Source: Vibrio quintilis (GTDB taxonomy: Bacteria; Pseudomonadota; Gammaproteobacteria; Enterobacterales; Vibrionaceae). From it: a stretch of DNA of 64,000 bases. Below are positions 16,024-59,898 of the stretch, one piece after another. The notes under the pieces were generated by a model that saw only the letters and a list, made by a program, of their open reading frames with translations, made no database searches and was not told where the DNA came from. How positions within the stretch are numbered: position 1 is the first letter of the stretch; each line of letters opens with the position of its first letter. The stretch is from contig NZ_AP024898.1 of NCBI RefSeq assembly GCF_024529975.1, positions 744,001 through 808,000 on the forward strand, given 5' to 3'. Made by a program: the position numbers and the translations under genes.

Positions 16024-16734
16024 TCAGGATGCATGCTGAATTATCGCAGGTGCCAATAACTGGTTGGTCACAGTGCAAAGCAGCTGGCAGTGGTCAAATA
16101 TAAAAAAGTGTTTGCCCGGAAAACTCTGTAAATGAACAGGTTCTGTCGTGACCTGTTGCCAGGCTGAAGCGGTTTCGAAACTGACATTTTCCTGATCTCC
16201 GTACCAGACCGTCACCGGACAATTCAAAGGACGACAGGGTTGCCATTGCCAGGTTTCTGCCGCGGTAAAATCTGCCCGGAGAATCTGTTCAAAATAGTTT
16301 CTCAGTTTGAGATCATGCATCAGTTCGTCTGGAATTCCGCCCATAGCTGACAGCGCCTGCCAGAAATCATCTGAATTCATCAGATGTTTTCTTCCTGTCA
16401 ATTGGACGGTGGGGGAACTTCTGCCCGAGACAATCATGTGACTGGGTGGACGGTATCCATGAGCGGCTGCGATCCGGGCAACCAGATACGAAACCAGCGC
16501 TCCCATACTATGCCCGTAAAATACATATTCCGAGTTGAAGAGATTCGCCTGCCGTAATTCATGAAACAACAGTTCTGCAATCGCTTCAAGCTCATACATG
16601 AGAGGTTCATGACTTTTAATACCATGCCCCGGATACTCCATACACTGTACGTGAATGTCTCTGTTCAGTCTGCTGAACAGGTCACTGTAAGCCCGGCTGC
16701 TTCCGCCTGCATATGGAAAACAAATCAGTTGCAA
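16024..16734 (-). CDS. Type II thioesterase
   Basis: A 236-aa alpha/beta hydrolase of the editing thioesterase family (GrsT/SrfAD-like), which clears mis-primed or stalled acyl groups from carrier proteins in the cytosol. It starts with the typical LICFPYAGGSSRAY and has the nucleophile elbow YGHSMGA near residue 86. An Asp follows in VWYGDQENV near 188 and a His in FPGKHFFI near 212. The start codon is TTG, with AAGGA 7 bases upstream on the minus strand. The gene is divergent from the serine hydrolase gene across a regulatory-looking 379-bp gap and marks the left edge of the cluster. Confidence 0.9.
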   Translation of the reverse strand: MQLICFPYAGGSSRAYSDLFSRLNRDIHVQCMEYPGHGIKSHEPLMYELEAIAELLFHELRQANLFNSEYVFYGHSMGALVSYLVARIAAAHGYRPPSHMIVSGRSSPTVQLTGRKHLMNSDDFWQALSAMGGIPDELMHDLKLRNYFEQILRADFTAAETWQWQPCRPLNCPVTVWYGDQENVSFETASAWQQVTTEPVHLQSFPGKHFFIFDHCQLLCTVTNQLLAPAIIQHAS

Positions 16735-17113: not shown

Positions 17114-19267
17114 ATGAAATGCAAATTACGCTTATTTACTTACGTCTGTATGCTGTTTGCTATGCCAGCATATAGTCTGGATAGCGCACAGATTGCGACA
17201 ATTGCTCAGGTGGCTTTGGATATTGAGCAGGATGAGTCAACCATACCAGGCGCAGTCACCGCGATAGCTGATGACACTTCGGTGATATGGACAGGCAAAA
17301 GTAACTGTGATGCGCAGTATGAATCGTCAGGATTTCCGTGTCCGGACTCCGTGGTCAATACTACTGATCAGTTCCGGATTGGCAGTGAGACCAAAACCTA
17401 TACGGGAACGGTGATCTTAAAGATGATTGAAGACGGGTATCTGAATTTAACTGATACACTGGATTCTCTGGCACCGTTTCTCGATATTCCAAATGCCGAA
17501 TCAATTACGGTCGAAAATCTGTTACAGATGACCAGCACCATCCCGGATTATCTGAATGCTCCGGCACTTTATTACGGTTCAGACACTGATTTAACCATCA
17601 ATGATCAATACGTCATTCAGTACGGGCAATTAGAAATCACGCCGCCGGATGCCTATATCATGGCAACCAACAGTCAGGACAGAACATCCGGTATGAGCTA
17701 TTCGAATACCAACTTTGCCATTCTGGCGCTGATTGCCCAGCAAAAATCCTGTGAAATTCCGGACTTTACCAGTTGCCAGACCATCGAACAGCTCATTTCT
17801 CACTACGTTTTTGAACCATTATCACTTGGCAGTACCATTTTTCCGGAAGATGACCAGTTCTCTCAGGCCCATGCAAAAGGGTATGTCATGATTGAATCAG
17901 GCAAAGAAATCACCGGCACTGCATCGCTGGAAAGTAATGATGCCAATGAGCTGATCGACTCTTTTACCTACTTAAATCCCAAACTCCCGTGGGCTGCCGG
18001 GGCGATTATTTCTGTGCTTAACGAGCAAATTACCTGGGCCCGCCAATTGGTGAAAAATGATCAAAATCTGCTTTCAGCATCGATGCAGACTCAACGTCTG
18101 AATGATACCGCAGCCGGAAGCGTTGCCGGTATTCCGGCCCGCTACGGACTGGCGGTTTATCACATGAATTCATTCTATAACGGTTCGAATTTTACCGGCC
18201 ATTCCGGTGCTATTTTTGGCTTCACCAGTTCTTTATTTTATAACCAGGAAACGGACCTGTTTTATGCTGTTGATGTGAATCAGTATCCGGCCTGGCAGAC
18301 CGCACGGGACTTTATGTGGCAAATAGACAAAGGCGTGCGTTTCTCACAGGATCAAAACGGTAACTGTACCGGTTCACCCCAGCCGGTGCCATCAACCTGC
18401 ACCGGTCTGAGTGTCAGAACGTCTTCATTTACGGTCCCGACAGGTAATTCGCTGACCATCGAGCCCTCTCAGGTGATTTACACCGGTTATGACACCAGTG
18501 ATTGTTCCACTGATTCGACAACCGGAGCTATGACCTGTACTGCAATGAACAATACCGCCCCCACACTGGTGTTTTACGGGCATGATCTGGAAGGAATTCA
18601 AATTGATTCCGGTACACTGACTCTGGAATCCGGTGCAATTTTGCAGTGCAGCGGACGGCATTGCAGCGCGATTGCAACAACCGGCTCACCCGTACTGAAT
18701 ATCTATGGCACCATTACCACGGAAGGGACAGGCAGTCAGGCCATCAAAGGCAGCAGCGGTAACGAAACTGTCAAACTATATTCAGGTGCGTCAGTCAGCG
18801 GCGATATTGATTTAGGAACAGGAAGTAACGAGCTGAATCTGGAAGAGGGTGCTTCCTTTACCGGGAATATGGTTCTGAGCACGCCTGATGTGAAGTTATC
18901 CAGTGGTTCTCAATATTTATCGGTCAGCGTTGATAATAATCAGGTCATGGTGAAGGATGCAGCGAATCGCAGCATGTCTTATGCTCAGGATGACAGCCTG
19001 ACACAAGTCACAATCGATAATGAGACAGTTTCTTCTGATTCATTGTTGATTCCCATCGATCTTGATGACAACGGTCAGTATGACCTTGTTGTCTATCAAA
19101 GTGATGATTTGAATCAGCTGACCTTAAAAGTCAGCACAGCGCTGTTTGATACCAACTTCTCTTTTGCATCCGCCAAAAGCTCCGGTGCATCCGGGCCGTT
19201 TTTCTTCGTCATCCTGTTGTTGAGCGGACTGTTCAGGGAGGGATTATTCAAATACCGGAGACGATAG
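17114..19267 (+). CDS. Exported beta-lactamase-fold serine hydrolase with C-terminal membrane anchor
   Basis: A 717-aa protein with a signal peptide (cleavage near residue 21) and an S12/class C beta-lactamase-like domain to about residue 420. The catalytic SxxK is S91-E-T-K94, the YxN equivalent is Y196-S-N198, and the third motif is the GHSGAIFGF segment near 365. A Cys/Ser/Thr-rich beta-repeat region follows (about 430-680) that resembles passenger-type beta-helix repeats. The end is a hydrophobic helix (FFFVILLLSGLF) with a basic tail, which would anchor it or act as a sorting tail. It should act outside the cytoplasm. Peptidases of this fold (ClbP, ZmaM, XcnG) remove prodrug caps in NRPS pathways; a D-Ala carboxypeptidase or esterase role is equally possible. 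It opens the plus-strand gene series. Confidence 0.75.
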   Translation: MKCKLRLFTYVCMLFAMPAYSLDSAQIATIAQVALDIEQDESTIPGAVTAIADDTSVIWTGKSNCDAQYESSGFPCPDSVVNTTDQFRIGSETKTYTGTVILKMIEDGYLNLTDTLDSLAPFLDIPNAESITVENLLQMTSTIPDYLNAPALYYGSDTDLTINDQYVIQYGQLEITPPDAYIMATNSQDRTSGMSYSNTNFAILALIAQQKSCEIPDFTSCQTIEQLISHYVFEPLSLGSTIFPEDDQFSQAHAKGYVMIESGKEITGTASLESNDANELIDSFTYLNPKLPWAAGAIISVLNEQITWARQLVKNDQNLLSASMQTQRLNDTAAGSVAGIPARYGLAVYHMNSFYNGSNFTGHSGAIFGFTSSLFYNQETDLFYAVDVNQYPAWQTARDFMWQIDKGVRFSQDQNGNCTGSPQPVPSTCTGLSVRTSSFTVPTGNSLTIEPSQVIYTGYDTSDCSTDSTTGAMTCTAMNNTAPTLVFYGHDLEGIQIDSGTLTLESGAILQCSGRHCSAIATTGSPVLNIYGTITTEGTGSQAIKGSSGNETVKLYSGASVSGDIDLGTGSNELNLEEGASFTGNMVLSTPDVKLSSGSQYLSVSVDNNQVMVKDAANRSMSYAQDDSLTQVTIDNETVSSDSLLIPIDLDDNGQYDLVVYQSDDLNQLTLKVSTALFDTNFSFASAKSSGASGPFFFVILLLSGLFREGLFKYRRR

Positions 19268-19503: not shown

Positions 19504-22500
19504 ATGATGGAACTCAGCAAGAATAATATTGAAGATATCCTTCCGCTTACACCACTTCAGGCCGGCATGCTTTATCACGACCTGTTGGAGAAAGAAAGCC
19601 ATCATCATGTCTCTTATAACCAGCAGGTCAGATTCCGCCTGACCGGCACACTGAATGTGGAGGCTTTCCGGCAGGCATGGCAATGCTTAATCAATCGCCA
19701 TGCAGCGCTCCGGGTGGTGTTCAAACATGATAAATCTGCCGAACCGATTCAGATCGTTCTGAAAGAAAGGGATTTTGTCGTCCGGTTTATGGATTTAACC
19801 CCGTTGAGTGACAGCGAAAAAATGCGACAACTGGAAGGTTTTATTGAATCTGATAAACGCCAGACATTTTCACTGGAACGGGATATTCCGATGCGGGTGT
19901 CTCTGCTGAAATCCGGGCCGGAAGAGCATTGGTTTGTCTGGTCATTTCATCATATCTGCCTTGACGGGTGGTGTGTTGCTTCTCTTCAGCAGGAGCTGTT
20001 TACCGTTTACCAGCAGTTGATCAATAACCGTCCGGTTGACTTGCCGCCGGCACCTTCATTCAGCCGTTATATTAAGTGGTACAAAGGTCAGGAGTCTCAT
20101 CAGGATTTCTGGCGTCAGTATCTGGACGGATACACGCTGACGACATCGCCGCCGCTGCCAACCTTACACCACGATGATGAAGAAAGCGGTATGGCGTCAA
20201 GTCATCATGAATACGGGACGGAAATTCGCCTGATCGACGGCCCGCAATGGCAGGCATTCAATGAACTGAGTATCCGGACAGGCGCAACGCCAAGTACTTT
20301 GTTTCATTGTCTGTGGGGGTTATTTCTGGCAAAGGTGAATGAAACCAGTGATGTGGTGTTTGGCAGTGTTCAGTCGATTCGCCCGCTGGCAAATTCGCAG
20401 TTTGAACGTCTGATTGGCTTATGCATTAATACCATGCCATTCCGGGTTCGCTTTTCGGCGCAGGACAGCCTGAAAGAGATTGCATCTAAGTTACAGCTTG
20501 GTCAGCTTGGTTGTCTGGAACATGCAACCATGTCTGTCAGCGAAATTCAGGCCCAGTGCAGCCAGACAGGTAAACTGTTTGATCATTTTATTGCCTTTGA
20601 AAACTATCCAGTAACCGACAATGAAGACTGCGGGAAAGAAAAGCTGACAGAAGGGTTGTATGCTGATGAGTTTCGCGAATACATGCCGACCTCTTATCCT
20701 TTTCATATTGCTGTCTTACCCATAAAGAAATCGCCTGCAAAACAAGCATTACAGATTCTGTTTAAATATGTGCCGAGAAAAGTAGAGAAGGACAATGTCC
20801 GGGCGGTTGCCGATACTTTTTGCCGCTTTGTTGAAGATTGCCTTTCTGCACCGGATGCTCCGGTTGCTGACTTCAATTTAACCAGCCCGTCCGGGCTGCT
20901 TTCAACCGGACAACCGATGGCATTACCGGCAGAACATTTAACCGGATTTTATCAGCAACATGCCTGTGATCAACAAACTGCATTGATTGAAGGCAACAGA
21001 CATCTGACGCATCAACAGCTTCGGCAAGCCAGTATTGCTCTGGCATGTCAGATAAAGGCGAAACTGAAAATCTGTTCTTCGGAAGCGCATACTTCACAAA
21101 CAAACCATGCAAAAACAGTTGCTTTATATGACACAGCCGGGAGTGAGATGCTGGTTGCGATCTTTGCCTGCTTCCACCTCGGTATTCCTTATGTGCCAAT
21201 GGATCCGGCTAATCCGCTGGCGATCTCAAAATCGATCCTGAAGCAGGCAAAAGCCGGGCTGATTATCACCACAGAGCAGCAAACTGATTTACTGACGATG
21301 GATTCCGGCATTGAGTGCCTGAGGGTCGATCTGGCTCAGATCATGTCGTCGCTGTCTGATGTTTCTGCTGGCCCGGTGACAGATGATGCTTCATTCCTTG
21401 TTCAGGCCGGTGCAGACAGTACCGCGTATATTATTTTTACCTCCGGTACGACCGGCGAGCCCAAAGGGGTGCCGGTGACTCACCGGTCACTGATCAACTA
21501 TGTGTGTTGGTGTCGCGACCGGTTTGATTTCTCGGCCTCTGACAGTAGTTTATTGCTGACGTCCTTCAATTTTGATCTGGGCTATACGGCAATCTTTGGC
21601 AGTTTACTTTCCGGTGGCACATTACATATTGCCAGTGAAGCGCAGCGGCGTGATCCCCGGTGGGTCGCTGATTATATCAGGGACAGTCATATCAGTTTCC
21701 TCAAACTGACACCTTCCTATCTGCATATGTTGCTCGAAGTGCTGGGCCCACAGGTATTTAATGATTGCGAACTGAGCCGTCTGATAATGGGCGGTGAACC
21801 GCTGAATTACGCCGATCTCAAACAGCTGCATCAGTGCAATCCGGCATTGCGTCTGTTCAATCATTATGGCCCGACTGAAAATACAATCGGATGCTGTGCT
21901 AATGCGATTACTACCCATGATATCTCCGGTCATTATCAGAATATCGGGCAACCAGCGCATAATACCCGGGCGTACATACTAAACCGGCAAATGGGTGTGT
22001 GTCCGCCGTATGTTGAAGGCGAATTATGCCTGTCCGGTAACCAGCTCATGCGCGCTTATCTGAATCCGGATCATAATCACAACCGTCTGATGGCTCTCAA
22101 TGATCAACCCATTTACCGGACCGGTGACAGAGCTTACCGCACACTGCAGGGGGACATTGTCTTTCTTGGCCGTGAGCAGCAATCCGTCAAGATCGATGGC
22201 TACCGGGTCGATTTAAACGCAGTTCAGCGGGTGATTCAAAAATACAGCGCGATTAAGGACTGCCTGGTTGACAGCTTCCGGCGTGACGATGACTCAGTGA
22301 TTATTGTTGCACTGGTGATTCCGGCGGATGATGGTGAGATTAATCTGCATGAATTACGTCACTGGCTGGGAGAACAACTGCCACACTATATGCATCCGTC
22401 TGATTTTATTGAAGTCTCGCGTTTTCCGATCACCACCAATGGCAAACTGGATCGGAAAACATTGCTGCAGTTCTGGAAAAACCGCCTGAATACCACATCC

Positions 22501-23613
22501 GGAGCGACCTGTCAGGCGCCCCGGACAGAAACAGAAAAGAGACTGGTCAGCATCTGGGAAAAGATTTTTCTCAGACAGCAAATCAGCGTCACAACCAGCT
22601 TTTTTGAATTAGGTGGTCACTCGATCAAAGCGATTATCTGTACCAGTGAAATACGTAAGCAGTTTGGTATCACAATGCCGGTCACGCAGGTGTTTACTCA
22701 TCCGACAATTGTGGCCCTTGCATCAGTCATCGACCATTATCTGGCAGGTGAGAATGAAGCACATCAGGCGGCAAAACCTTTGATGACCGAAGCAAGTCAG
22801 CGGATTCTGCCGCTTTATACCTCCAATTCAAATGGCGCGATACCCGCTCAGGCGGACGACCTGGTGTACTGCTTACCGGCAATTTTAGGGACTTCAACCG
22901 TTTATAAAGAAATTTTTGAAGCGCTGAAAATGCCGGTGCAGGCTTTCGGGTTTCAGTGTGGTGGTTTTGTCTCTGAGCCATTGTCAGAGGATTTACTGCA
23001 ACTGGCCGATCTGGCAGCAAATTGTATTGCTCAGCATTATCAAACCATCACAGGCCGGCCCCGCATGATGCTTTTCGGCTACTCTTTCGGCGCGATTCTG
23101 GCACTGGAAGTGGCGCAACGTCTGGAAAAGCTGGGATATTCCGTTGCTTTACTATTGCTGGATTCAAATTTGAATATGCAGCATGACGGTATTGAACAAA
23201 CCCTGAGTGAAATGCGTCATATCCGCTACTGGGACAAAATTATTTCTTTGTTTGAGAAACATCTGAATCAGACCGAGCTCAGACAGATCGAAGCGGGGGT
23301 GATTCATCATCAGCGCATACTTCGCCGCTACCTGAACCAGCAACAAATAAACAGTCACTTATTAAATTCAGAAATGATCTGTATCGAGAGCTGCCAAAAC
23401 TCAGATCAGGGTTATATGCGCTGTTTCGGCCAGAAAACAGCAGGCCATTGCCGGGTCATGTCCACCTCCGGTGATCATTACAGTATGTTCCAGCCGCCAC
23501 ACTTCACCGGATTACTCAGCAACATCCGTGATGCAATCACGCTTTTAATGCATCCGGAACAGAAGAAAACCGGTCAGCGGGGGCAGGTGCACAGCAAAGT
23601 GGAATTGAATTAA
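19504..23613 (+). CDS. NRPS, C-A-PCP-TE (predicted Asp module, terminal)
   Basis: A 1369-aa termination module. The condensation domain (about 10-440) opens with EDILPLTPLQAGMLYH and has HHICLDGW near 149, the start style of domains that accept a D-residue or another protein's chain. The adenylation domain spans about 465-990 (FTSGTTGEPKGV near 642, TTNGKLDRK near 978). Hand-read pocket residues are D-L-T-K-I-G-H-I-G-K, close to known Asp codes. The carrier site is LGGHS with Ser1040. The thioesterase spans about 1115-1350 (GYSFGA with Ser1194, Asp in LLDSN, His in GDHYSM). Although encoded first, it should act last, after the protein at 44066, which ends in an epimerase domain and a short acidic tail. 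A 7-bp hairpin lies upstream at 19338-19356. Confidence 0.88.
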   Translation: MMELSKNNIEDILPLTPLQAGMLYHDLLEKESHHHVSYNQQVRFRLTGTLNVEAFRQAWQCLINRHAALRVVFKHDKSAEPIQIVLKERDFVVRFMDLTPLSDSEKMRQLEGFIESDKRQTFSLERDIPMRVSLLKSGPEEHWFVWSFHHICLDGWCVASLQQELFTVYQQLINNRPVDLPPAPSFSRYIKWYKGQESHQDFWRQYLDGYTLTTSPPLPTLHHDDEESGMASSHHEYGTEIRLIDGPQWQAFNELSIRTGATPSTLFHCLWGLFLAKVNETSDVVFGSVQSIRPLANSQFERLIGLCINTMPFRVRFSAQDSLKEIASKLQLGQLGCLEHATMSVSEIQAQCSQTGKLFDHFIAFENYPVTDNEDCGKEKLTEGLYADEFREYMPTSYPFHIAVLPIKKSPAKQALQILFKYVPRKVEKDNVRAVADTFCRFVEDCLSAPDAPVADFNLTSPSGLLSTGQPMALPAEHLTGFYQQHACDQQTALIEGNRHLTHQQLRQASIALACQIKAKLKICSSEAHTSQTNHAKTVALYDTAGSEMLVAIFACFHLGIPYVPMDPANPLAISKSILKQAKAGLIITTEQQTDLLTMDSGIECLRVDLAQIMSSLSDVSAGPVTDDASFLVQAGADSTAYIIFTSGTTGEPKGVPVTHRSLINYVCWCRDRFDFSASDSSLLLTSFNFDLGYTAIFGSLLSGGTLHIASEAQRRDPRWVADYIRDSHISFLKLTPSYLHMLLEVLGPQVFNDCELSRLIMGGEPLNYADLKQLHQCNPALRLFNHYGPTENTIGCCANAITTHDISGHYQNIGQPAHNTRAYILNRQMGVCPPYVEGELCLSGNQLMRAYLNPDHNHNRLMALNDQPIYRTGDRAYRTLQGDIVFLGREQQSVKIDGYRVDLNAVQRVIQKYSAIKDCLVDSFRRDDDSVIIVALVIPADDGEINLHELRHWLGEQLPHYMHPSDFIEVSRFPITTNGKLDRKTLLQFWKNRLNTTSGATCQAPRTETEKRLVSIWEKIFLRQQISVTTSFFELGGHSIKAIICTSEIRKQFGITMPVTQVFTHPTIVALASVIDHYLAGENEAHQAAKPLMTEASQRILPLYTSNSNGAIPAQADDLVYCLPAILGTSTVYKEIFEALKMPVQAFGFQCGGFVSEPLSEDLLQLADLAANCIAQHYQTITGRPRMMLFGYSFGAILALEVAQRLEKLGYSVALLLLDSNLNMQHDGIEQTLSEMRHIRYWDKIISLFEKHLNQTELRQIEAGVIHHQRILRRYLNQQQINSHLLNSEMICIESCQNSDQGYMRCFGQKTAGHCRVMSTSGDHYSMFQPPHFTGLLSNIRDAITLLMHPEQKKTGQRGQVHSKVELN

Positions 23614-23651: not shown

Positions 23652-24260
23652 ATGAGAGAACCACAAAAGAAAACCACCGCCCAGGAGGAGAAAGCTGCTG
23701 CAGCGACTCCTGAGAAAGAAGCGGCGGCCGGGCCGGCAGAAGAGGTCACGGAACAACCACCCGTTGATCTGGAAGCCTGCAAAGCGAAAGCGGAAAAAAT
23801 TGTTGAGAAGTACAGCAAATGGTCACTGGCAACCGGACTGATTCCGGCGCCTGCGATTGATTTGGTTGCGCTGACCGCCGTTCAAATCAAAATGGCTTCT
23901 GAAATCTGTAAGGCGTTTGAGCAATCCTTCAGTGAGCACAAGCTGAAGTCAATTTTAGTGCCACTGCTTGGTGCTGCATTGCCGCAGGCACTGACGACCG
24001 GCGGCGTCAGCTCAACCGTGAAAGCCATTCCCGTCTATGGCACCCTGGTTGGTTTATCCACCATGCCACTGCTGTCTGCCGGTGCCAGCTATGCGATTGG
24101 CAGTGCATTTATCAGTCACTTTGCCAATGGCGGAACACTGCTCAGTCTGAATGTCAGTTCTATGACTGATGCTGTGAAAGAGAATGTTCAAAAATACAAA
24201 AATAAAAACAAAAGTGATGAGGATGTATCCGTGGCGGATGAAGAGACCGCAAAAGCATAA
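23652..24260 (+). CDS. DUF697-like membrane-associated protein
   Basis: A 202-aa protein. The first 40 residues are disordered and Ala/Glu/Lys-rich. Then comes a helical domain with KAEKIVEKYSKWSLATGLIPAPAIDLVALTAVQIKMASEI, the pattern of DUF697 (YcjF-like) domains, followed by amphipathic or hydrophobic helices (ILVPLLGAALPQAL, AIPVYGTLVGLSTMPLLSAG) and a charged tail. The domain is usually tied to membranes, often with GTPases or stress proteins. ATG at 23652 has GGAGA 7 bases upstream; an earlier in-frame ATG at 23640 lacks one. It lies between the TE module and the exporter genes. No enzymatic motif was seen; a structural or membrane role with the exporter is inferred. Confidence 0.65.
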   Translation: MREPQKKTTAQEEKAAAATPEKEAAAGPAEEVTEQPPVDLEACKAKAEKIVEKYSKWSLATGLIPAPAIDLVALTAVQIKMASEICKAFEQSFSEHKLKSILVPLLGAALPQALTTGGVSSTVKAIPVYGTLVGLSTMPLLSAGASYAIGSAFISHFANGGTLLSLNVSSMTDAVKENVQKYKNKNKSDEDVSVADEETAKA

Positions 24261-24343
24261 TCATAAAACCGGTGAAACTTTAACCTTTCCGCTTCCGGGA
24301 GGTGAGGAATAAAGTTTCACCATTATTCGTCAGCAGGTTTTTA

Positions 24344-24538
24344 ATGAATATTTATATTTTAATTATATATTTTTTTGCCAGTGTATTGGTTGGTTATATG
24401 GGACGTAACACGTTTGCCGGTGCAGTTGGTTATTTTCTGTTGTCTTGTATTTTCTCACCTCCGATTGCGTTGTTCTTCCTGATTGTGACAAATAAAAAAA
24501 CACGCATTGATATGAATAAAAAGAATAATGATTTATGA
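24344..24538 (+). CDS. Small two-helix membrane protein
   Basis: A 64-aa protein made almost entirely of two hydrophobic helices (MNIYILIIYFFASVLVGYMG and VGYFLLSCIFSPPIALFFLIVT) and a basic tail. ATG at 24344 follows a CAGG-type site; a GTG at 24302 is a less likely start. Its last codons overlap the exporter start (ATGA at 24535-24538), so translation is probably coupled and the protein may be a small partner of the ABC exporter. No family was recognised. Confidence 0.6.
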   Translation: MNIYILIIYFFASVLVGYMGRNTFAGAVGYFLLSCIFSPPIALFFLIVTNKKTRIDMNKKNNDL

Positions 24539-26178
24539 ATGTTTTTCGTTTAATTGATCGCGAATTAAAAATTAATAAAAGAAAGTTTTTATCTTTTGCC
24601 GGAATATCAGGTTTTGCCAATGCTGCGATTCTTGCTGTAATTAATGTTTCAGCAGAGCATGTTTCGAATAAAGAGGACACCATCTATTATCTGGCGTTAT
24701 TTATTGTCGTCAGTGCGATGTATGCCGTTGCCCAGAAACAGCTGATGATGGAAGCCACAACCCATGTGGAAAAATCTATTAACAGCCTGAGGATTAAACT
24801 GGTAAAAGATATCCTGCACAGTGAATTAAGTACCATTGAGACCATTGGCAAAGAAAAAATTTACACCATTGTCAGTAAAGAGCTGCAAACCATGTCTCAG
24901 GCTTCGGCGTTGTTTGTCATCTGTGGACAGGCTGCCATCCTGCTGTTTTTTACCATTTTGTATGTGGCCTGGTTATCACCGGTGGCATTCTTTCTGACTT
25001 TCATCTTTTTAGCGATTGGCAGTGGCTGGCACATTCTTCGTTCAAAAGAGGTCAAAGAAAAACTGAAACAAGCATTTGATATTGAGAATGTTCTTGTCAC
25101 CCGGTTATCTGATCTTCTGGGCGGGTTTAAAGAAGTTAAACTGAACTCAGATCGCTCATCTGAGCTGGAAAAACGAATTCTTGATTTGTCCGATGATGTG
25201 ACGGAAACCAAAATTTCCACCCAGAAAATATACGCAGTTGATTTTGTGATTTCACAGCTCACTTTCTTTATTCTGACCGGTGCGATGGTGTTTCTTGTCC
25301 CCATACTGTCCAGTGTTTATCCGGATGTGGTGATGAAAGTTACCACGGCTTCATTATTTTTGATCGGGCCAATTTCCAATATTGTCGGTGGTGTGCCGAT
25401 TTTTTCAAATGCGAACGCTGCGATTCAAAATGTACTGGAACTTGAACAAATGTTGCAGGACGGTAAGTCTGCTTTCATTCCGGAAAATCCAACAGACAAT
25501 TTTGCAGACGGATTTAACAAAATTGAAATGACCGGGCTTTATTTCAGTCACTCAAATGGAGATGATGAAAAACCATTTACTGTCGGCCCGGTTAATTTAG
25601 TTATTAACCGCGGTGAAACTATATTTATTACCGGTGGTAACGGCAGCGGTAAAACAACCTTTATGCGTTTAATGACGACTTTATATCAGGCCAGTGGCGG
25701 GATGATTAAAGTTGATGGCCGGATCATCGATAAAAATAATTGCATGGCCTACCGGAATTTATTCTCCTCTGTATTCGCTGACTTTCATTTATTTCAGGAA
25801 ATATATGGCATCAGTGAGGAAGATGAAGCCGTTTATTCAGAATGGCTGGAATACATCGGTATGTCCCACAAAGTCAAAATCCGGGATAAACAGTTCAGCA
25901 CGATTAAGTTATCGACCGGCCAGCGAAAACGACTGGCACTAATGGTTAGTGCACTGGAAAACCGGCCGATTTGTATTTTTGACGAATGGGCTGCCGATCA
26001 GGATCCGACCTTCAGAGAAAAATTCTATTCAGAAATTCTTCCGCGACTGAAAGCCAATCACCAGACCGTTATTGCTGTCACGCATGACGATATGTATTTC
26101 GACCGGGCTGACCGGCAGCTGAAAATGGTGGATGGTCAGATCATCGAACATCACAGTCATATGGAGTCACCGCTTTGA
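24535..26178 (+). CDS. Cyclic-peptide-type ABC exporter (SyrD/PvdE-like half transporter)
   Basis: A 547-aa ABC half transporter: transmembrane domain with about six helices (residues 15-300), then a nucleotide-binding domain with Walker A GGNGSGKTT (about 369-377), signature LSTGQRKRL (near 460) and Walker B ICIFDEWAADQD (near 480), then the H-loop VTHDD. The DEWAADQDP wording and the compact size match the SyrD/PvdE/MdsA-like group that exports NRPS peptides to the periplasm. It should work as a dimer in the inner membrane and move the lipopeptide out. The gene overlaps the genes on both sides by 4 bp. Confidence 0.9.
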   Translation: MNVFRLIDRELKINKRKFLSFAGISGFANAAILAVINVSAEHVSNKEDTIYYLALFIVVSAMYAVAQKQLMMEATTHVEKSINSLRIKLVKDILHSELSTIETIGKEKIYTIVSKELQTMSQASALFVICGQAAILLFFTILYVAWLSPVAFFLTFIFLAIGSGWHILRSKEVKEKLKQAFDIENVLVTRLSDLLGGFKEVKLNSDRSSELEKRILDLSDDVTETKISTQKIYAVDFVISQLTFFILTGAMVFLVPILSSVYPDVVMKVTTASLFLIGPISNIVGGVPIFSNANAAIQNVLELEQMLQDGKSAFIPENPTDNFADGFNKIEMTGLYFSHSNGDDEKPFTVGPVNLVINRGETIFITGGNGSGKTTFMRLMTTLYQASGGMIKVDGRIIDKNNCMAYRNLFSSVFADFHLFQEIYGISEEDEAVYSEWLEYIGMSHKVKIRDKQFSTIKLSTGQRKRLALMVSALENRPICIFDEWAADQDPTFREKFYSEILPRLKANHQTVIAVTHDDMYFDRADRQLKMVDGQIIEHHSHMESPL

Positions 26179-27440
26179 GTATTATTATTCCAATCTGGCT
26201 GTTGCCATCAATATTATTGAGCCTGATTACCCTGACAGGCATGTATCTCTTTGTCGCGAAAAATTATCCGGAGCGCTTCCTGGTCGTCCGTTTCATCAGA
26301 AAGAACCGGATTCAGCTGGCGCTGACCGGGCTGTTTTTTATTTTCATTTTATTAGCCGTCGGGCCGAAAGTGCTGATTCCGGTGCCTTATGGTCATGCCG
26401 GTGTAATCTGGAAACGGTTTGCGGGCGGTACTGATTTGGATGAGACATTGCATGAAGGTACAGCACTGGTCATGCCGTGGAACCGGATTTATATCTATTC
26501 AACCAAATACCAGACGATTACCCACGAATTTGAAGCGGTGACGAAAAATGGTCTGGCGACCAAAGTTTATGTGATCCTCCGTTTCAGGGTCATCCGCAAA
26601 ACCCTGCCGTACCTGCATGTCAATGCCGGTGTTCACTATATCGAACGGATGCTGTTGCCGGAGATCGGCTCATGGTCACGTCTGGTCATTGCCCGCCACT
26701 CTGCGGAAGAAGTCTACTCCACCAATCGTCTTGAAGTTCAGAAAGAAATTTTCTCTTTACTGAGAGGGGAAGTGGAAACGATGGAAAGTGATGAAGGACA
26801 CAGCTGTGAATTAACCGCCGACGATGGCGACGGCCATTACAGCAACATCCACTGTAGTGCCAAAGATTACTTCGAAATTCAGGACTTTCTGATTCAGAGC
26901 ATTGATCTGCCAAAAGGCATCCGGGAAGCCATTGTACGGAAAATTGAACAGACACACCTGGCAGATGAATATGACTGGCGGATTACCGTGGCGGAAAAAG
27001 AAGCGGTCCGTAAAGAGAAAGAAGCGGAAGGGATTGCGAAGTTTCAGAGTATTGTCACCGGCGGAATATCAGACACTTATCTGCGCTGGCGTGGTATTGA
27101 AGCCACGCTGGAACTGGCAAAATCAGACAATAGCAAAGTGGTGGTGATTGGCGGCGGCAAAGACGGACTACCGATCATTCTGAATACCGCCGGGGATGCC
27201 AAAAGTGGTGTTTCAGAGAAAGGTGACTCTGAAGAAGCCCGGTCCGATACATTTATATCCGTTAAACCGGATGAGCTGAAAAAAGAAGAGCATGTTGTAG
27301 TGAATGGCTCTACCCGGTGCGTCAATGGATGTGACGTGGATAAAACCAAAAACAAAGATAATTCCAGGCAGAAAGAACAGACTCTGGCTTCTTCCGGTGC
27401 GCCGGAGAAAAAGACTGTTCCGGAGAAAACTAACCCATGA
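26175..27440 (+). CDS. SPFH/band-7 (prohibitin-like) membrane protein
   Basis: A 421-aa protein with two N-terminal membrane helices (about 4-26 and 45-63). An SPFH/band-7 domain follows (VPYGHAGVIWKRFAGG through YDWRITVAEKEAVRKEKEAEG, about 70-305). The end is a long charged tail rich in Lys/Glu/Ser. The helix AVRKEKEAEGIAKFQSIV is typical of stomatin/prohibitin coiled coils that form ring-like scaffolds in the inner membrane. The start codon is TTG, overlapping the exporter stop as TTGA, with GGAG 8 bases upstream. The end overlaps the giant synthase start as ATGA. Such a protein inside an NRPS operon is unusual; anchoring the synthase or exporter to a membrane domain is an inference. Confidence 0.8.
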   Translation: MSIIIPIWLLPSILLSLITLTGMYLFVAKNYPERFLVVRFIRKNRIQLALTGLFFIFILLAVGPKVLIPVPYGHAGVIWKRFAGGTDLDETLHEGTALVMPWNRIYIYSTKYQTITHEFEAVTKNGLATKVYVILRFRVIRKTLPYLHVNAGVHYIERMLLPEIGSWSRLVIARHSAEEVYSTNRLEVQKEIFSLLRGEVETMESDEGHSCELTADDGDGHYSNIHCSAKDYFEIQDFLIQSIDLPKGIREAIVRKIEQTHLADEYDWRITVAEKEAVRKEKEAEGIAKFQSIVTGGISDTYLRWRGIEATLELAKSDNSKVVVIGGGKDGLPIILNTAGDAKSGVSEKGDSEEARSDTFISVKPDELKKEEHVVVNGSTRCVNGCDVDKTKNKDNSRQKEQTLASSGAPEKKTVPEKTNP

Positions 27441-30400
27441 TGCGTATCAGTTATCCAGATGTGGTATCGGCAATTTTGTCGCATAAAGATTCAGACATCA
27501 GTATTGAATTCATCCGGTGTAAGAATGAATCAGAAGTTACTGATTATAAAAATTTTATTTCGCAGGCTTATGCTTTGGGGCGGCAAATGTCAGCCAGCGG
27601 TGTTCAACCCGGAGATGAACTGGTGATTGTCTCTGATGATGTGGCGTTCTTTGCCCGTACTTTTGTGGCCGCGATGTTGTTTTCGGTGGTTCCGGTGCCA
27701 GTAAGCTTTCCGGCCAGTGAGTCTTCCCGGCAGAAGATTCTGGCGATATGGAAACAACTGCGCAATCCGTGGATTATTTCTGATCAGCCACTCGATACCC
27801 TCTTCGCCCAGTATACGGATGAGCATGCGATGCACTTGCTGACCCGGGTGCTGACGCCCACATCAGCCGAAGCTCCACAAACGCCTGACAGCATTCCGGA
27901 CGCTCAAATGACAGTGCCTGTCCCCGATAGTCTGGCATTCATTCAGTACAGTTCCGGCTCAACCGGCGATCCGAAAGGGGTAAAAGTTACCCATAAAATG
28001 CTGATCGCCAATTGTGACCTTGCCGTCAACATCCACAAAATTACCGCTCAGGATTCTTTTCTGAGCTGGATGCCATTGAGCCATGATTTCGGGTTGATCT
28101 ATTTTATGTTGTTCCCGCTGATCTGCGGACTGAGATTTACCCTGATACCAACCCGGATATTTGCCCGCAACCCGGTGTTATGGCTCGAACAGATGAACCG
28201 TTGCCAGGCAACGATTTCCGGTGCCCCGAATTATGCCTTTGAACATGTGATGAAAATGTTCCGCTCTGATGCTGCAGCTGGCTGGGATCTGAGTTGTATC
28301 CGCTACATTATCAACGGCGCAGAACCGATCAATGCTCAAATATGTCACCGCTTTGAAGAGACATTTGCACCTTACGGTTTCACTTCCGGAGTGATTACAC
28401 CCTGCTACGGACTGGCTGAAGCCACTCTGCTGGTTTCCTCGGCAACTCTCGGGGAAACACCGGTGATTTACCGTTGTAACCGCGACAATCTGAAACCGGG
28501 AGATAAGGTTCAGTATCAGGCCAACGGCTGTGAATTTGTCGATGTCGGTTATCCCGGTAACCATGTCCGGTGGCGGATCGCCGATGAAAACAATCAGCGG
28601 GTTGAAGCAGAGCATATTGGCCGGATTCAGCTTCAGGGAGACATCATCACTCCGGGATATTATTTCGCGCCGAACCGTACCGAGGCATTATTTACTACAG
28701 ATGGCTGGCTTGATACCGGCGATCTGGGGTTTCTCCGGGAAGACAGACTGGTGATTACCGGACGCAGTAAAGACATTATCATTATCAATGGTAAAAACTT
28801 CTATCCTCAGGATATTGAAACCGTTTGCTGTGAGTTACCAGAGCTCGGGCTGAATAAAGTGGTGGCGGTTTCTGCGCAGGACCAGAGCGGACAGCCGGTG
28901 TTTATTGTCTTCCTGTTGTTCCGCCACAAACCTGAAGCCTTTGTACCGCTGATCAAAAAAACACAGGAACGCCTCATCCGGGAACTGGGGATCAAACCCG
29001 ACTATTGCCTGCCGGTCAAACATATTCCCAAAACCACCAGTGGCAAGCTGAAACGGTTTGATCTGGTCCGGCAATTTGAGCAGGGTGATTTTGATACCGT
29101 GATCCGTCAGTTGAAAGCGACGGAATCTGCCGCAGGTCTTCATCCGATGAAATGGGCGATTCTCAGTGGCGATCACAGCGAAATTATCAACCAGCTGAAA
29201 TTACTGATTCAGCCGCTATTTCCTCAGCACGATCCGGAGCAACAAAACCCGGCACAGCCAACCCTGGATATTCACCAGCCACTCATGGAGCAGGGGCTGC
29301 AATCGGTGCATTTAACTGAAATCGTTTCCCGCATCAACGACGTATCCGGTCATCACTATCCGGTTGGGGTGATGTTTGACTACCCGACGGTTCAGGCGCT
29401 GGCTGACATGCTGGCCGCACAGAGTCAGCAACTGACCACTGAATCCGGCCCAACCGGCCGCTATCAGCAAAGCGGTGCAGCTTTGATTGGGATCAGCTGT
29501 TATTTTCCCGGCAACGTCAATGACCCGCAAACATTCTGGCAGCAATTAATGGCGGAAACCGATTTCGTCAGTGACATTCCGGCCGATCGTAAACCGGTTA
29601 ATCCTGAACGCCTGAGTCAGTATCCGGGCCTGAATAAAGGGCACTTTATCGATGATCCCTGGTGTTTTGACCATCAGTTTTTCCGGATCTCTCCGGCAGA
29701 AGCTTTAACGATGGACCCGCAGCAACGTCTGTTGCTGCAAGCCTGTTGGCATGCATTTGAAGATGCCGGGATTGACCCGCAACAGTGGCGTGGTAAAAAA
29801 GCCGGGGTTTATCTCGGCCTGTCAAATATCGATTATGACCATATCCTGCAACGCTCCGGCGACCCACAGGCACTGAATGCGTACCGGCTGACCGGCAATT
29901 CTCCCAGCATCGCTGCCGGACGAATCGCGTACAGCTTTAACTTTAACGGCCCGGTCATGACCATCGACACGGCCTGTTCTTCATCACTGGTTGCCATTCA
30001 TTATGCCTTGCAGGATCTGCGCTCCGGTGCCTGTGATCTGGCCATTGTCGGCGGTGTCAACCTGATGCTGGACGGCAGTACATCAGCCGCTTTAACCAGT
30101 ATGCAGGCATTATCCGGATCCGGGCAGAGCAAAACCTTTTCCGCGCAGGCCGATGGTTACGGCCGGGGCGAAGGATGCGCAGTCATCATTCTCCGCCGTG
30201 AAGCCGAAGCGGAAACAGACAGCAACCGGATCCGGGCTGTGATTCAGGGCAGCGCGGTCAACCATGATGGTGCCAGTAACGGGCTGACCGCGCCCAGCGG
30301 CAAAGCCCAGCAGGAAGTGCTGCAACAGGCGCTGAACGATGCAGGCTGTCAGCCGCAGGACGTTGCGTTTATTGAAACCCACGGCACCGGCACCGTACTG

Positions 30401-33400
30401 GGTGATCCGATTGAGGTGAATGCCATCAGTCAGGTCTATGCCGGGCGGAATCCAGACGCGTTTCCGCTCTGTCTGGGTTCGGTGAAAACCAATATCGGCC
30501 ATCTGGAAGCCGCCGCCGGGATTGCCGGGGTGATTAAGTCGGCGCTGGCGCTGGCACATCAGCAACTTCCGGCGACCCTGCATTGTGATGATCTCAATCC
30601 GCATATTGACTGGTCGTCTGTCCCGGCAACCATCGCAAACCATACACAAATGCTGCCGGCAGAGCCCTGTTACGCCGGGGTCAGCGCGTTTGGTCTGAGC
30701 GGCACTAATTGTCATGTGATTTTAAAAAGCCACCGGGTCGAACAGGAAACGGCAACAGAGCCGGATACTGCATCCCGCCGACAAACGGAAGGATTCCTGC
30801 TGCCACTCAGTGCGGCATCACCGGAAAGTCTGTCGGCATTGCAGACGCAGTGGCAAAAACTGATAGCAAATGAAAATGAAGCAACACTGGCTGCCTGTTG
30901 TGCCGCCAATGCCATTCACCGGGCGCATCTGCCTTACCGGACCTGTTTTTACGGTACTGACAAGCTGGATCTCAGCCAGCAATTAGCCGGATTCTCACCA
31001 CACTCACTCACATTTCACCGGGAGAAACCGGCGCTGGCATTCGTGTTCAGCGGGCAGGGCTGCCAGTATCCGGCGATGGCAGCGGCGCTTTACACCCGTT
31101 TTCCCGTTTTTAAAGCCAGTATCGATGAAATGGCTGCCGTGCTGGCGCCGGTGTGGCCTTATAATCTGATTGATGTCATGACCAGTGAGCAAACCCCGCA
31201 GGAGACACTGAATAATACCGCAGTGACTCAGGTAATCGTTGTGGCTTACCAGATTGCACTCGCAAAATTGTGGCAGGATTCCGGACTCACACCAGCGTAT
31301 TGCGTTGGTCACTCGATCGGAGAAATTGCGGCGGCGGCGGTGTGCGAAAGCCTTTCTGTCAAAGACGCTGTCTTACTGGCAGCCAGCCGGGGACAACTGA
31401 TTGCAGCTTTACCGGCCGGTGGCGCGATGGCGGCGGTGATGGCTGATCCGGATTCGGTTCAGTCAGCGCTGGATCATCTGGACGATGGCAGCAAACTGGT
31501 GATTGCGGCATATAACTCGCCGGGAAGTGTCACGATTTCCGGTGAAAGTGAGTTACTGGAACAGGCGCTGAACGATTTGCAGGCTGCCGGTATCCGGGTG
31601 AAGAAACTGGATATTTCTCATGCGTTTCACAGCCCGTTACTACAGCCGGTGATGGCTGACTTTGCCGCCATTGTCAGTAAAATTGCTTTTAAGTCACCCA
31701 AATATCCTGTGATTTCAACCGTGACCGGAGAAAAACTGCATCCGGATGACTGGCAACGTCCGGAATACTGGGTGGATCACCTGACACATCCGGTCTTGTT
31801 CCATCAGGCTATGACATGTTTACCGCAGCGGGAAAACCTGCTGATCCTGGAAATCTCGCCCAGACCAACCCTGATGCTGCCGGGAAAACAGTGTTGTCCG
31901 CAAAATCACTGGATATGCAGCCAGCAATCCAAAGAGATGCTGACTTCATTTTATCAGGCGCTCAACGAACTCTATCAGGCCGGTATGGATTTTAACTGGT
32001 CACCACTGTTTGAACCGGTTCTCTCTGCTACGCGAATTGCGGCGAGCCGTCTGCCACTGTATCCGTTTCAGACTCACCAGCACCGGCCAAAAACGCTGGC
32101 TCTGCCTGCATCATCACCTGCAGAAACGGCTGAGAACCAAACCGCAGCCTTATCCCAGGCCTGCGCAGAACCGTCTTCTGCGATTCATGTTGAGCCGCCG
32201 GCACATACAGCGTCCGCATCTTCTTCTGTTTCTTCTCAGATACGGGTCGACCGACAGGCTGAAGTGCAGCAATTGATCGCGTCAGTCACCGGCCTGCAAT
32301 TGTCGCAGCTGGACGAGGGAGCAAACTGGTTTGCGCTCGGACTGGATTCCCTGGTGATCGTTCAGATCCAGCAGGCAGTAATGAAACATTTCGGGATTGA
32401 GTTTGAACTGGCGACACTGATGGGAGCGCTTGATACCTGCCAGAAACTGGCAGAGAAAATAGGGGAGCTGGTTCCTGAAGAAGCATTGCCGGCAGAAGCA
32501 ATCAATGAACAAATCATATCTGACAGCGCGCCGATTCAGATGACAAACGATAACACATTATCTGCGACAACCGGATCTGCGACAACCAGTGCAGCGGGAT
32601 CTCTGGAATCACTTTGTCAACAGCAAATGGTGGCGATGAATCAGCTGTTTCAATCTCAGCTGAGTGCCTTTTCCGGACAGATATCATCAGGCAGCCGTGC
32701 TGAAAATATCACGCCGTCAGTGCCGGAGACTCATCAACAAGCGCCACATCCGAAAGTAAACCAGCCCCGCAAGGAAATCAAAGGGTTATATCAGTCGCTG
32801 AAAACGGAGAAAAATAATGCCCTGTCCAGACAGCAGCTGGCTCACCTGAGCTGGCTGCAACAACAGCTGAATCAGCGCACCTCTGCTTCTAAAGCTTACA
32901 CGGCACAACACCGGACCCACTACGCAAACAGCCGCAGTATTCTGGGCTTTAAACCGGAAACCAAAGAGATGACGTATCCGGTTCATGTCGACAAAGCCGA
33001 GGGGATTTATCTGTGGGATATGGACGGTAACCGCTACATTGATATCACCATGGGGTTCGGTTCGATTCTGTTTGGCCACAATCCGGATTTCATTAAAAAT
33101 CCGTTATCAGAGGTGCTTGCGCTGGGCGCCCCGGTCGGCCCGCAGAATCTTCAGGCCGCAACTGCGGCTGAAAAGCTGTGCCGTCTGACCGGTCATGAAC
33201 GGGCCAGCTTTTTCACCAGTGGCACAGAAGCGATTATGGTTGGTGTGCGGATTGCCCGGAGTGTGACCCGGCGCAAGAAAATTGTGATTTTCCACGGCGC
33301 TTTTCACGGCAGCTTTGACAGTGTACTGGCTTCCGGCTGGCTGGAAGACGGGCAACCCCAAACCGTCCCGCTGACCGATGGTTCCCCGCAGGGGCTGGTT

Positions 33401-36400
33401 GATGACACCATTGTGCTGACATATGGCGAAGCCCGCTCGCTGGATGTGATCCGGGAACATGCCGGTGACATTGCTGCGGTGATTATTGAACCGGTACAAA
33501 GCCGCAATCCGGTACTCCAACCGGTTGAGTTTGTCCGGGAATTGCGTGAACTGACACAAGCGCAGGATATTGCGCTGATTTGTGATGACATCATTCTCGG
33601 CTTCCGTTACGCGCTGGATGGCAGCCGCAGCTGGCTGGGGATTACGCCGGATCTGGTGACCTACGGTAAAGTACTGGGCGGCGGGCAACCTATTGGTGTA
33701 CTGGCCGGATGTTGTAAGTATATGGATGCTGTTGATGGCGGTAACTGGCGCTATGGTGATGACTCGGTGCCACAGAGCAGAACGGCTTTTGTTGCCGGGA
33801 CGTTCAACAGCCATCCGCTGGCGATGACCGCTGCCAATGCCGTATTAGATAAGCTGCTTGCGGAAGGGGAAGACTTACTGGTAACGCTGAACCGGAAAAC
33901 CGAAGCGATGTGCCTGCAGCTCAATACATGGTTTGAGGACAACCAGATACCGGTCCGGATGGTCTGGTTTGGTTCCCTGTTCCGGTTTGAATATTCGCCG
34001 CAGACTGAACTGCTGAATTTCCATCTGCTGAAAAATGGTTTATACGTCTGGGAAGGCCGTAACTGTTTTCTGGGTTGCGCGCATACCGATGACGATATCC
34101 GTCAGATCATTGAGATTGTCAAACGCAGTGCCTGGGAACTGGTCAACGGCGGCTGGACCGACGGGTTGACCTGCGAAAATCAGTCGCTGATGCTGCCGCT
34201 GACTCACGGTCAGCAGGCGATGTATTCTCTGCTGGAATCTCAACCGGATAACGCAACGGCTTACACCGAAATGATGGCGCTTGAGTTTGAGCATTCGCCG
34301 GATCATTCGATTCTGCAACAGGCATGGGGCCAGGTGCTGGCCCGTCACGATTCACTGAGAATCAGCCGGATTAGTGCCGCGGGTCAGTATATTTCGGCGA
34401 CGATGCAGCCCGTCATCACAGTAAAACAGGCCACCGAATCCCAACGTGCAGCCATGCGGTGTCAGTTACTCAATCAGCCTTTTGATACCGAATACGGTCC
34501 GTTCTGGCGGATTCAGCTGATCTGCACCCCACAGGGAAGTGATTTACTGTGCTGCTTCAGCCATCTGATTGTTGACGGCTGGTCCATGGGCATTGTGGTT
34601 GACGAACTGGCAACCACTTATCAGGCGCTGAAAGCGGGTCAGATACCGGCACCGGAGCCGGTGATTCCGCTGCTGCAATGGCTGGCCCGGGATACCGCGA
34701 AAGAAAATCAGCCACCAGTGAGCGCCCCTGAGCCTGAAGCAGATTACCTGCTGCCGCTGTACATTGCCGGAGACAGCAAACTCTACGCTCCGGCAACCGG
34801 GCAAGGGACCCGGATTCAAACCCTGTTTGCGCCGGATTTATTTGCCCGGGTTAAAAGACAAGCTCAACAGCTGCAGGTCAGCTCTTTCAGCCTGCTGATG
34901 GGCGCATGGGCGCTTTTACTGAACCGGCTGAGCGCCCGGGCCCGTTTTGTGATTGGCATGCCGGTTGCCGGACATAACGGGATGGGTGCAGGCCATCTGG
35001 TTGGTTACGCCTCTGAAGTCAGAGCCGTGCAGATCGACATTGCGCTACAGCAGACCACCGGCGAATGGGTCCATCAGCTGAGCGGGCGGATTCGGCAGGC
35101 ACAACAGGATGAGATAACAGCACAAATTCCGGTGTCCTGTCTGTTTAATGTTGACCGGGGAATTTCACTCACCATGGATACCCGGCCGCGCTGGGGACAT
35201 GTGCCTGTCAGTTGTGTCAAACAGCCGCTGTTTCTGAATATTCTTGAGTTTAACGATCAGCTCTATGTCGATTTTGACTTTGATACCTCGATCGCTACAG
35301 CGGAAACCGGGCAGTGCTGGCTGACCCATTATATGACCATTGTGCAGCAGCTATGCGGTGATACACAGCAGACCATTGAGCAGCTCATGGAAAGCATTGA
35401 CCCGTATCAGGGCGTGTTAACCGATGAGCAGGGGATTCCGCTGTTTGCCGGAGCCTGTGGCTGGCATCACGACCCGCATCAGGATAAAAACTGGCTTGCC
35501 CGGCTGACATCTGACAGCCGGATTCAAAAGCTGACACCGGATACCTGTCCGCTGAGCCTGCACGGGCAACCTGTTTATACGGAAGCACTGCTTGAGTTAC
35601 TGGATATGCCGCCGGAAGGCGTCCGGATTGAGGTGTGGCAGGGACAGATTTCCCTGAAGGTTGAAAGTCCGCTGCATCCGCTGGTATCTCTCCCGTTGCC
35701 GGTACTGGCAGAGAAGATCACGCAATCTGTCGCTGCGCCCTGGCAGCCGGTGTATATCTATCTGCCGGACGCTTCCGGTTATGTACTGATTCATGCGCAG
35801 AAACCGGCCACAACGGCGCAGGAAAAGGCCATTGCCCGGTTATGGGCGGAGACACTCGGACTGAAAGAATTCCCCCCGGTGAATAGATCCTTTATTCAGC
35901 TGGGTGGCAATAGTCTGGCGGCGCTGAATGTGATTCATAAGATGCAGACGCAGTTGCAGTTTTCCGTCAGTCTCAGTGATTTTCTTCAGGCATCCGGTAT
36001 TGACCAGCTGATTGAGTATGCTGTATCTGCTGAAACACACACCGCCGGGCCGGAGATTGTTCCGCTGCATCAGAAACCTTTACATCCGGGAGAACCGGAA
36101 CTGATCACCTGTTCTAATAATCAGCAGCGCCTGCTGTTTCTGCAGGTATTAGAACCACAGTTTTATGCCTACAACGTCGGTTTCTCAATGTCTCTGCCAT
36201 TCCGGATTGATACAGCCTTACTGGCACAGGCACTTCAGCCCGTTATGACGGCGAATCCGGTGTTACGCTGCTGGTTCCCGCAACCGGAAACGGCCCTGGT
36301 GATTGATATTGATCCCCGGCAATTGATAAGCAGTGCTTCTTTTGCCACCGCAGAAGAAGCGATGGCCGATGCGCAGCAGGAAGTGGAAACGCCATTTATG

Positions 36401-52809: not shown

Positions 52810-52821
52810 GAACATTCTCCT

Positions 52822-55935: not shown

Positions 55936-55936
55936 T

Positions 55937-59248: not shown

Positions 59249-59898
59249 TATCCTTCCAAATATTGACAATTTAAATACATAATTAAATTTTTAGGCAATA
59301 AAATATATTAACCAGACAAATAAATGCCTTGTTATATTCATAGTACAACTGGGATACTTGCACCAATAAAAGTTAACTAATGACAATAAAGAAAATAATT
59401 AAGCCATTTCTCCCGTATGAACTATTGATAATTATGAATTATATGAATGTAATTTCAAACATAATATTCATAGATTAACATCTTAATTATGAAAGTGAAG
59501 TGATATTTTAGAGCAGTATAATTAAAGAAAAGTTCAAAATAATATAATCATATCCGAACAACACAAAGAAGAGGCATAACGTACTGAAAAATATATCAAA
59601 TTTTATATTGAGATTTAAAATGATTAGTTGTTATATATATATAAAACATTAGTTATATATTAAATTAAAATACAGGCATACAGTTTTTTATATACAAAAT
59701 GGTTAAATTTATTAAATATACTAAATATAAAGGTTAAATTTACCGTCCTATATAAGGTAATATTTACCTGAATATATTAATTTTCAGTATATTTATTTTT
59801 ATCACTTTAAATGGAACTAAACAGAGGAGTTAAGGTCGGCTTTAGGTTTAAGCCTTGCAGAAAGATACAAGGCTTTTGAGAATTAAGAATGTTTCTGA
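59249..59898. other. Long AT-rich intergenic region at the cluster right end
   Basis: About 650 bp with no credible ORF and clearly higher AT than the flanks, including long A/T runs and TATATA tracts (around 59630-59700). It should hold the promoter of the minus-strand arm. Such AT-rich DNA is the usual target of H-NS-type silencing in vibrios, which would fit a cluster without its own regulator. Only a hairpin at its far end (59850-59877) stands out. Confidence 0.6.
59850..59877 (-). terminator. Weak hairpin after the cytochrome b561 gene
   Basis: AAGCCTTG-(10)-CAAGGCTT stem, 22 bp past the cytochrome stop on the minus strand. Only a short T stretch follows. Confidence 0.45.

Follow-up and report, generated by a model that had tools for sequence, protein, structure and literature searches.

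A recurrent Proteobacterial gene module joining a prohibitin-like SPFH protein to a DUF697 protein, a micro protein and, in many loci, a cyclic peptide exporter

A four-gene module in a Vibrio quintilis biosynthetic cluster

During our follow-up of an initial annotation of a 64,000-nucleotide stretch of the Vibrio quintilis genome (contig NZ_AP024898.1, positions 744,001 to 808,000; hereafter the window), which lies in a 5.85-Mb genome of three contigs, on the second of these (1.69 Mb), we found that four consecutive genes within a nonribosomal peptide synthetase (NRPS) operon belong to a gene set that recurs in other Proteobacteria. Our results support a coherent module in which an exporter and an SPFH protein are translationally coupled, often beside NRPS or polyketide synthase (PKS) genes. 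In the window, all four genes are on the plus strand and encode a 202-residue DUF697 protein (23652-24260; PF05128, 38.4 bits against a cut-off of 27.7), a 64-residue two-helix micro protein (24344-24538; identified by iterated profile), a 547-residue SyrD/YojI-type cyclic (lipo)peptide ATP-binding cassette (ABC) exporter (24535-26178; TIGR01194, ABC_tran and ABC_membrane) and a 421-residue prohibitin-like SPFH protein (26175-27440; PF01145 (Band_7), 71.1 bits against 23.6). Both the coordinates and the family matches agree with the initial annotation, which had listed these genes as consecutive, and the three 4-bp overlaps it had described were confirmed in the sequence: ATGA at the micro protein/exporter junction, TTGA at the exporter/SPFH junction, where the SPFH start codon is TTG, and ATGA where the SPFH stop meets the start of a 4880-residue synthase. 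The motif GGAG lies 5' of the DUF697, SPFH and synthase starts, whereas the micro protein and exporter starts have a weaker ribosome-site signal or none that is clear. The TTG start is backed both by its upstream GGAG and by a relative (locus L099 in our numbering) that has ATG at the same 4-bp overlap. The exporter passed the threshold of the TIGR01194 cyclic peptide exporter family (337.5 bits against a cut-off of 286.2), of which we take SyrD and YojI to be members or kin, and scored 345.8 against PRK10522, under that model's cut-off of 604; it differs from other TIGR01194 exporters in its coupling to SPFH.

Recurrence of the module

Profile searches with the SPFH protein gave 39 matches outside its own genome, from which 38 stretches were retrieved and 37 further loci counted, all in Proteobacteria; with seven seed loci (the window, L009 and L011-L015) these make up a table of 44. 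Since the seeds were used to build the SPFH, DUF697 and exporter profiles, the 37 others give the fairer count. The stretches examined reach at most ~10 kb to each side, and several stop at contig ends. Among the 37 further loci, which include near kin (e.g., L085 of L015; L051, L053 and L055; L092 and L093), a DUF697 gene was present in 26, the exporter in 17 and an NRPS or PKS gene in 18, the corresponding counts for all 44 loci being 33, 24 and 21. Kept outside the table were the Caballeronia locus L016 (although it is in alignment A1) and L084, which is the same pTM3 locus as L015; likewise uncounted was a contig-edge locus in genome G599 with DUF697 beside SPFH. A lipoprotein-like outlier (L061) was kept in the counts, and some SPFH frames with stop codons were used unchanged.

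The linkage of SPFH to DUF697 is far above chance: a genome-wide PF05128 search of 38 genomes placed a DUF697 gene within 10 kb of 28 of 40 module SPFH genes, against 0.4 expected under even spread. As a control we took 20 of the 38 matched genomes, hand-chosen and rich in positives, in which DUF697 was nearby for 21/22 module SPFH genes and for 0/66 other Band_7 genes. We rejected DUF697 as a general SPFH partner on this last count, and a one-off gathering of genes on the recurrence and the linkage above chance.

The window DUF697 protein contains DUF697 alone, as a short, stand-alone protein without a fused GTPase domain by Pfam; no search was made for a GTPase encoded separately as a partner. 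Like YcjF and other DUF697 proteins it exceeds the PF05128 cut-off, but it differs from them in its shortness, its lack of a GTPase domain and its SPFH and micro protein neighbours. Its AlphaFold2 model was all-helical (mean pLDDT 64.2, from an alignment of 3 sequences), and a DUF697 profile found no match among solved structures at E-values up to 1.

Conservation of the module extends to a third component, the micro protein. An iterated profile, seeded from the window, L009 and L011, detected it in 30 of the 44 loci, with 21 of the 30 lying 20-190 bp from a DUF697 gene, and gave no match in the other 14. On 361 kb of control DNA the profile scored nothing above 8 bits (best, 7.9 bits). The window member had no Pfam match at E-values up to 0.1, and the L099 member likewise matched no Pfam family; reading the matches by eye, we saw a core motif of approximately GRNxxxGxxGxFLxSxxLTP.

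The spread of the module is patchy. With the window SPFH protein as query (E-values up to 1e-15), only its own genome matched among 150 genomes of the family, and a scan of genome contigs with this query confirmed one locus, in Algicola. With profile A1 (E-values up to 1e-40), matches were found in 1 of 118 genomes of the genus (its own), 2 of 247 of the order (its own and G1586), 11 of 369 at the class level and 17 of 397 at the phylum level. Around G878, 15 of 338 genomes of its class and 33 of 45 of its genus had matches, and G680 was the sole match among 150 genomes of its order; these genome sets overlap, each being centred on a matched genome. In the genus of G878 many genomes had two SPFH matches, some in frames with internal stop codons. 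Among 72,556 plasmid records there were 19 matches (Azospirillum, Tistrella, Skermanella, a Rhodobacteraceae strain and Caballeronia), six of which we examined (H1, H9 and H16-H19), with a wider stretch as well for four of these.

Gene order and two versions of the module

The order DUF697-micro protein-exporter-SPFH is common to the window, L009 (Algicola), L015 (Tistrella mobilis pTM3), L085 (genome G1113, a Tistrella by inference) and L099, the last from a different family within the order of the window. An exact 4-bp exporter/SPFH overlap is present in 10 of the 24 exporter loci, and in L099. Gene order and overlap are kept across classes at ~30-50% protein identity. The distances of the SPFH proteins are correlated with those of the exporters (r 0.57, n=18, uncorrected for host kinship).

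Two versions of the module can be distinguished, one linked to the exporter (20/22 loci) and one to a binding-protein receptor (21/22 loci). In the SPFH tree the receptor-linked loci form a supported group of 22 (99/99), with a bootstrap that is not fully settled. Within this group a Peripla_BP_6-type gene lies no more than 10 kb from SPFH in 21 loci, 18 of these being within ~110 bp or overlapping; the receptor profile was seeded from L056, L063, L064 and L067, and Pfam confirmed the family in 6/6 loci given. The 22 rows outside the group have the exporter in 20 cases (13/15 once seeds are removed), and in 17 of the 22 it is on the same strand directly upstream of SPFH, at ~500 bp or less. 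A binding-protein match was found in 4 of 23 loci when L099 was added to these 22 rows, three by a weakly founded profile and one weak; the label SBP3 (L014, L048 and L099) comes from a profile built on two of these, and the L099 protein is without a Pfam match. The window and Algicola SPFH proteins fall with three others in a supported set of five (97/96).

Two loci had further genes of note. In L009 a second DUF697 gene and a MACPF-hemopexin gene are directly beside the module (L009:7590-9698, minus strand). In L059 a gene for a C39-peptidase ABC exporter sits between DUF697 and SPFH (L059:4570-7293, plus strand), an arrangement that is perhaps a ribosomal-peptide version of the module.

Kinship and predicted membrane side of the SPFH protein

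When compared with solved structures, module SPFH profile A1 matched prohibitin-2 at 2.4e-22, HflC at 3e-6 and erlin-1 at 3e-4, so that by profile comparison prohibitin is nearer to the module SPFH protein than HflC or erlin. A simple charge rule combined with hydropathy found more Lys/Arg before than after the last N-terminal membrane segment in 37 of the 44 loci, and from this flank bias the SPFH domain is predicted to be on the periplasmic side, as in HflK/C (for two loci, L087 and L090, it was a later segment that the rule selected). The binding-protein partner of the receptor-linked version is consistent with a periplasmic SPFH domain. Given the predicted topology, the receptor partner and the kinship to prohibitin, the exit side of the exporter is the most likely site of action of the module.

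The module protein shares with HflK/HflC-FtsH and mitochondrial prohibitins an SPFH domain; an N-terminal membrane anchor and a non-cytoplasmic location of that domain, as in those proteins, are predicted for it. It differs from them in having one SPFH gene per stretch examined, an exporter or receptor as partner gene, and a C-terminal motif of its own (approximately SxNxKVVVIGxGxDGLPLIL), which is present in 36/45 module rows and 0/7 own-genome paralogues. An ordinary HflK or HflC was rejected as its identity, the tree separating module SPFH proteins from 6/7 own-genome paralogues; the remaining one, whose branch is very long, was placed among the module rows.

Proposed role and alternatives

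We consider the chances about even that the four genes form a dedicated inner-membrane device, in which a prohibitin-like cage patch around the exporter would aid export or maturation of the product or shield the producer. From its family and predicted topology we infer that the SPFH protein would form a domed cage on the periplasmic face, probably as a homo-oligomer. The exporter, made in step with it through translational coupling, would sit in or beside the SPFH patch, and the helical DUF697 protein and the two-helix micro protein would be small membrane partners of this patch. The product would then be flipped outward by the exporter within a locally organised, curved patch, where it could be handed on or matured while the rest of the producer membrane was left undisturbed. 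According to the accessible part of one study (PMC12048511), HflK/C surround FtsH and reach into the periplasm, and in FtsH-HflK/C complexes the membrane is curved and lipid scrambling enhanced; by analogy, such curving and scrambling would suit the export of an amphiphilic peptide. The exporter-coupled version tilts the balance, though not decisively, from protection of the producer towards export or maturation.

Several points weigh against such a device. Adjacent genes in an operon do not have to encode proteins that are in contact. Among the further loci, 11 of the 37 are without DUF697, 20 without the exporter and 19 without an NRPS or PKS gene in the stretch examined. The initial annotation had proposed looking for the four genes together next to NRPS genes, its refuting case being a lack of joint conservation; the four genes are found together repeatedly, but an NRPS or PKS gene is in the stretch of only 18 of these 37 loci. 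Wider stretches added an NRPS or PKS gene for L011 (from an Azospirillum brasilense strain), L013 and L085; those around L014, L059, L061, L062, L064, L067, L069 and L086 contained no clear megasynthase, and that around L091 gave only a 501-residue protein with an AMP-binding match. The 50 kb around one Azospirillum brasilense copy likewise held no megasynthase match. In addition, the exporter type is absent from the stretch examined in 18 of the 22 receptor-linked loci (4/22 have one), the tree does not show the exporter-linked rows to be one clade, and the Caballeronia L016 SPFH gene has neither DUF697 nor the exporter nearby, although it does have an NRPS gene and the micro protein.

The chief rival is a self-immunity or membrane-stress device, in which SPFH, DUF697 and the micro protein would stabilise the inner membrane of the producer against the amphiphilic product that it makes, by whichever route this is exported. 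This is possible but rather doubtful. It would account for the many loci in which the core is found without a SyrD-type exporter, and for the C39-peptidase exporter that L059 has instead, and there are parallels in the Escherichia coli DUF697 protein YcjF, encoded next to the phage-shock operon, and in the Bacillus subtilis SPFH operon yqeZ-yqfAB, which gives resistance to sublancin. Under such a device, however, the tight exporter-SPFH coupling in 17/22 loci would be needless, and the receptor-linked loci suggest ligand handling. The initial annotation had suggested, as one of two readings, an SPFH platform docking the cytoplasmic megasynthase to the exporter. In the window the SPFH stop overlaps the synthase start; megasynthases are frequent neighbours, and in the accessible portion of their paper the authors of a study on the exporter Tba propose a synthase-exporter microdomain (PMC11960670). 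We find docking unlikely: with the SPFH domain predicted in the periplasm in 37/44 loci and the synthase in the cytoplasm, a tie between them could run only via the short N-terminal tail, DUF697 or the exporter and is unlikely as the direct task of SPFH, and among the 24 tabled exporter loci it is only in the window that a megasynthase overlaps SPFH downstream.

Still less probable, in our view, is a quality-control adaptor, in which the SPFH cage would govern turnover of the exporter or of membrane proteins damaged by the product, as HflK/C do with FtsH. Sequence kinship with prohibitin and HflC speaks for it, as do the HflK/C assemblies that hold the AAA protease FtsH (PMC12048511, same part), but the four genes include no protease; no search of the loci for a protease was made, and one of general function might be used in common. 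We think it highly improbable that the genes merely ride on islands with gene clusters and have no common function. The patchy spread (1/150 genomes of the family and 1/118 of the genus, its own each time) would fit such passive linkage, as would the integrase gene near the edge of the cluster, a tyrosine recombinase (Phage_integrase; 14079-15044, minus strand); against it, gene order and overlap have outlasted protein divergence to the level noted above.

Relation to described systems

How Gram-negative producers release large peptides and polyketides without self-harm is poorly understood, and, to our knowledge, most bacterial SPFH proteins have no known role. The module itself seems almost undescribed. 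The initial annotation had known of no NRPS cluster with this set; this no longer holds for part of the set, as an NRPS/PKS island of Thalassobaculum sp. OXR-137 has a cyclic peptide exporter followed by a prohibitin-family gene, and its authors suggest that prohibitins may interact with the cluster (PMC12016528, 2025). That report, in its accessible part, is of one case and does not include DUF697, the micro protein, the recurrence or the receptor-linked version. In the balhimycin system a paraslipin was found near the exporter Tba by proximity labelling, which resembles the module in bringing an SPFH protein near a natural-product exporter, there by experiment; the partner is an actinomycete paraslipin, and nothing in the accessible portion places its gene in the cluster (PMC11960670). 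The accessible text of a 2026 study of nine Pseudomonas aeruginosa SPFH proteins makes no mention of NRPS or secondary metabolism (PMC13086221). Our searches of the open-access literature, which leaves most subscription papers uncovered, listed only PMC12016528 and PMC11960670 as relevant and turned up no report that links DUF697 to SPFH or presents the set as recurrent.

The exporter-coupled version is likely also present in the didemnin cluster. In Tistrella mobilis plasmid pTM3, which we take to be the carrier of that cluster, a thioesterase gene (PF00975, 261 residues) is on the other strand immediately after SPFH, and two NRPS genes (one C-A-KR-T) start ~5 kb upstream of DUF697. The accessible part of the didemnin cluster paper (PMC10811503) describes didJ as a putative type II thioesterase and reports 19 open reading frames flanking the cluster, among them eight transporters and eight hypothetical proteins; it also describes knock-outs made in T. 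mobilis strain L17. The word "prohibitin" is absent from its main text as available (background on didemnin in Tistrella is given in PMC5577590, likewise in the part available). This gene neighbourhood and that description make it likely that the pTM3 module locus is the didemnin cluster.

On the reading of a dedicated inner-membrane device, the module would represent an unnamed, widespread class of devices, made up of a periplasm-facing SPFH cage, DUF697 and the micro protein, serving largely the assembly-line products of Proteobacteria and occurring in exporter- and receptor-coupled versions; we would put this, too, at roughly a balance of chances. If true, bacteria build a special compartment for the export or handling of assembly-line products. 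With a small, conserved SPFH module that is linked to an exporter and can be deleted, product exit and SPFH roles both become testable. The module could also be used as a marker when genomes are mined for new clusters, and it may be relevant to didemnin, a compound that has been studied clinically.

Other features of the window cluster

The synthase gene that overlaps SPFH (27437-42079, plus strand) encodes a megasynthase of FAAL/PKS/aminotransferase/NRPS type, with Pfam matches to two AMP-binding domains, a ketoacyl synthase, an acyltransferase, a class-III aminotransferase, four Condensation domains and four PP-binding stretches; the FAAL label is our presumption. It is followed 3' by an asparagine-synthase-like gene and a further NRPS gene. 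Upstream of the module is a C-A-T-TE NRPS gene by Pfam (19504-23613, plus strand), and a thioesterase gene (16024-16734) is apparently the first of the cluster. ARAGORN found no tRNA genes in the window.

Between the DUF697 and micro protein genes is a 12-bp perfect inverted repeat (24271-24282 / 24310-24321, plus strand), the fold of which had a z-score of -3.36 and was equalled in stability by 0/200 shuffles; the predicted stem may set unequal expression. A weak T-rich stretch lies 3' of the repeat.

A PF00144 beta-lactamase-family protein of 717 residues (17114-19267, plus strand; Pfam), which by eye has a signal peptide and whose C-terminal tail is hydrophobic and basic, is a possible periplasmic maturation enzyme. 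In L099, which has an NRPS and a TauD gene upstream, a PF00144 protein is encoded directly 5' of the module, and the presence of a PF00144 protein in both clusters hints at periplasmic maturation. A second assembly line with an esterase-like gene occupies 51679-59269 on the opposite (minus) strand.

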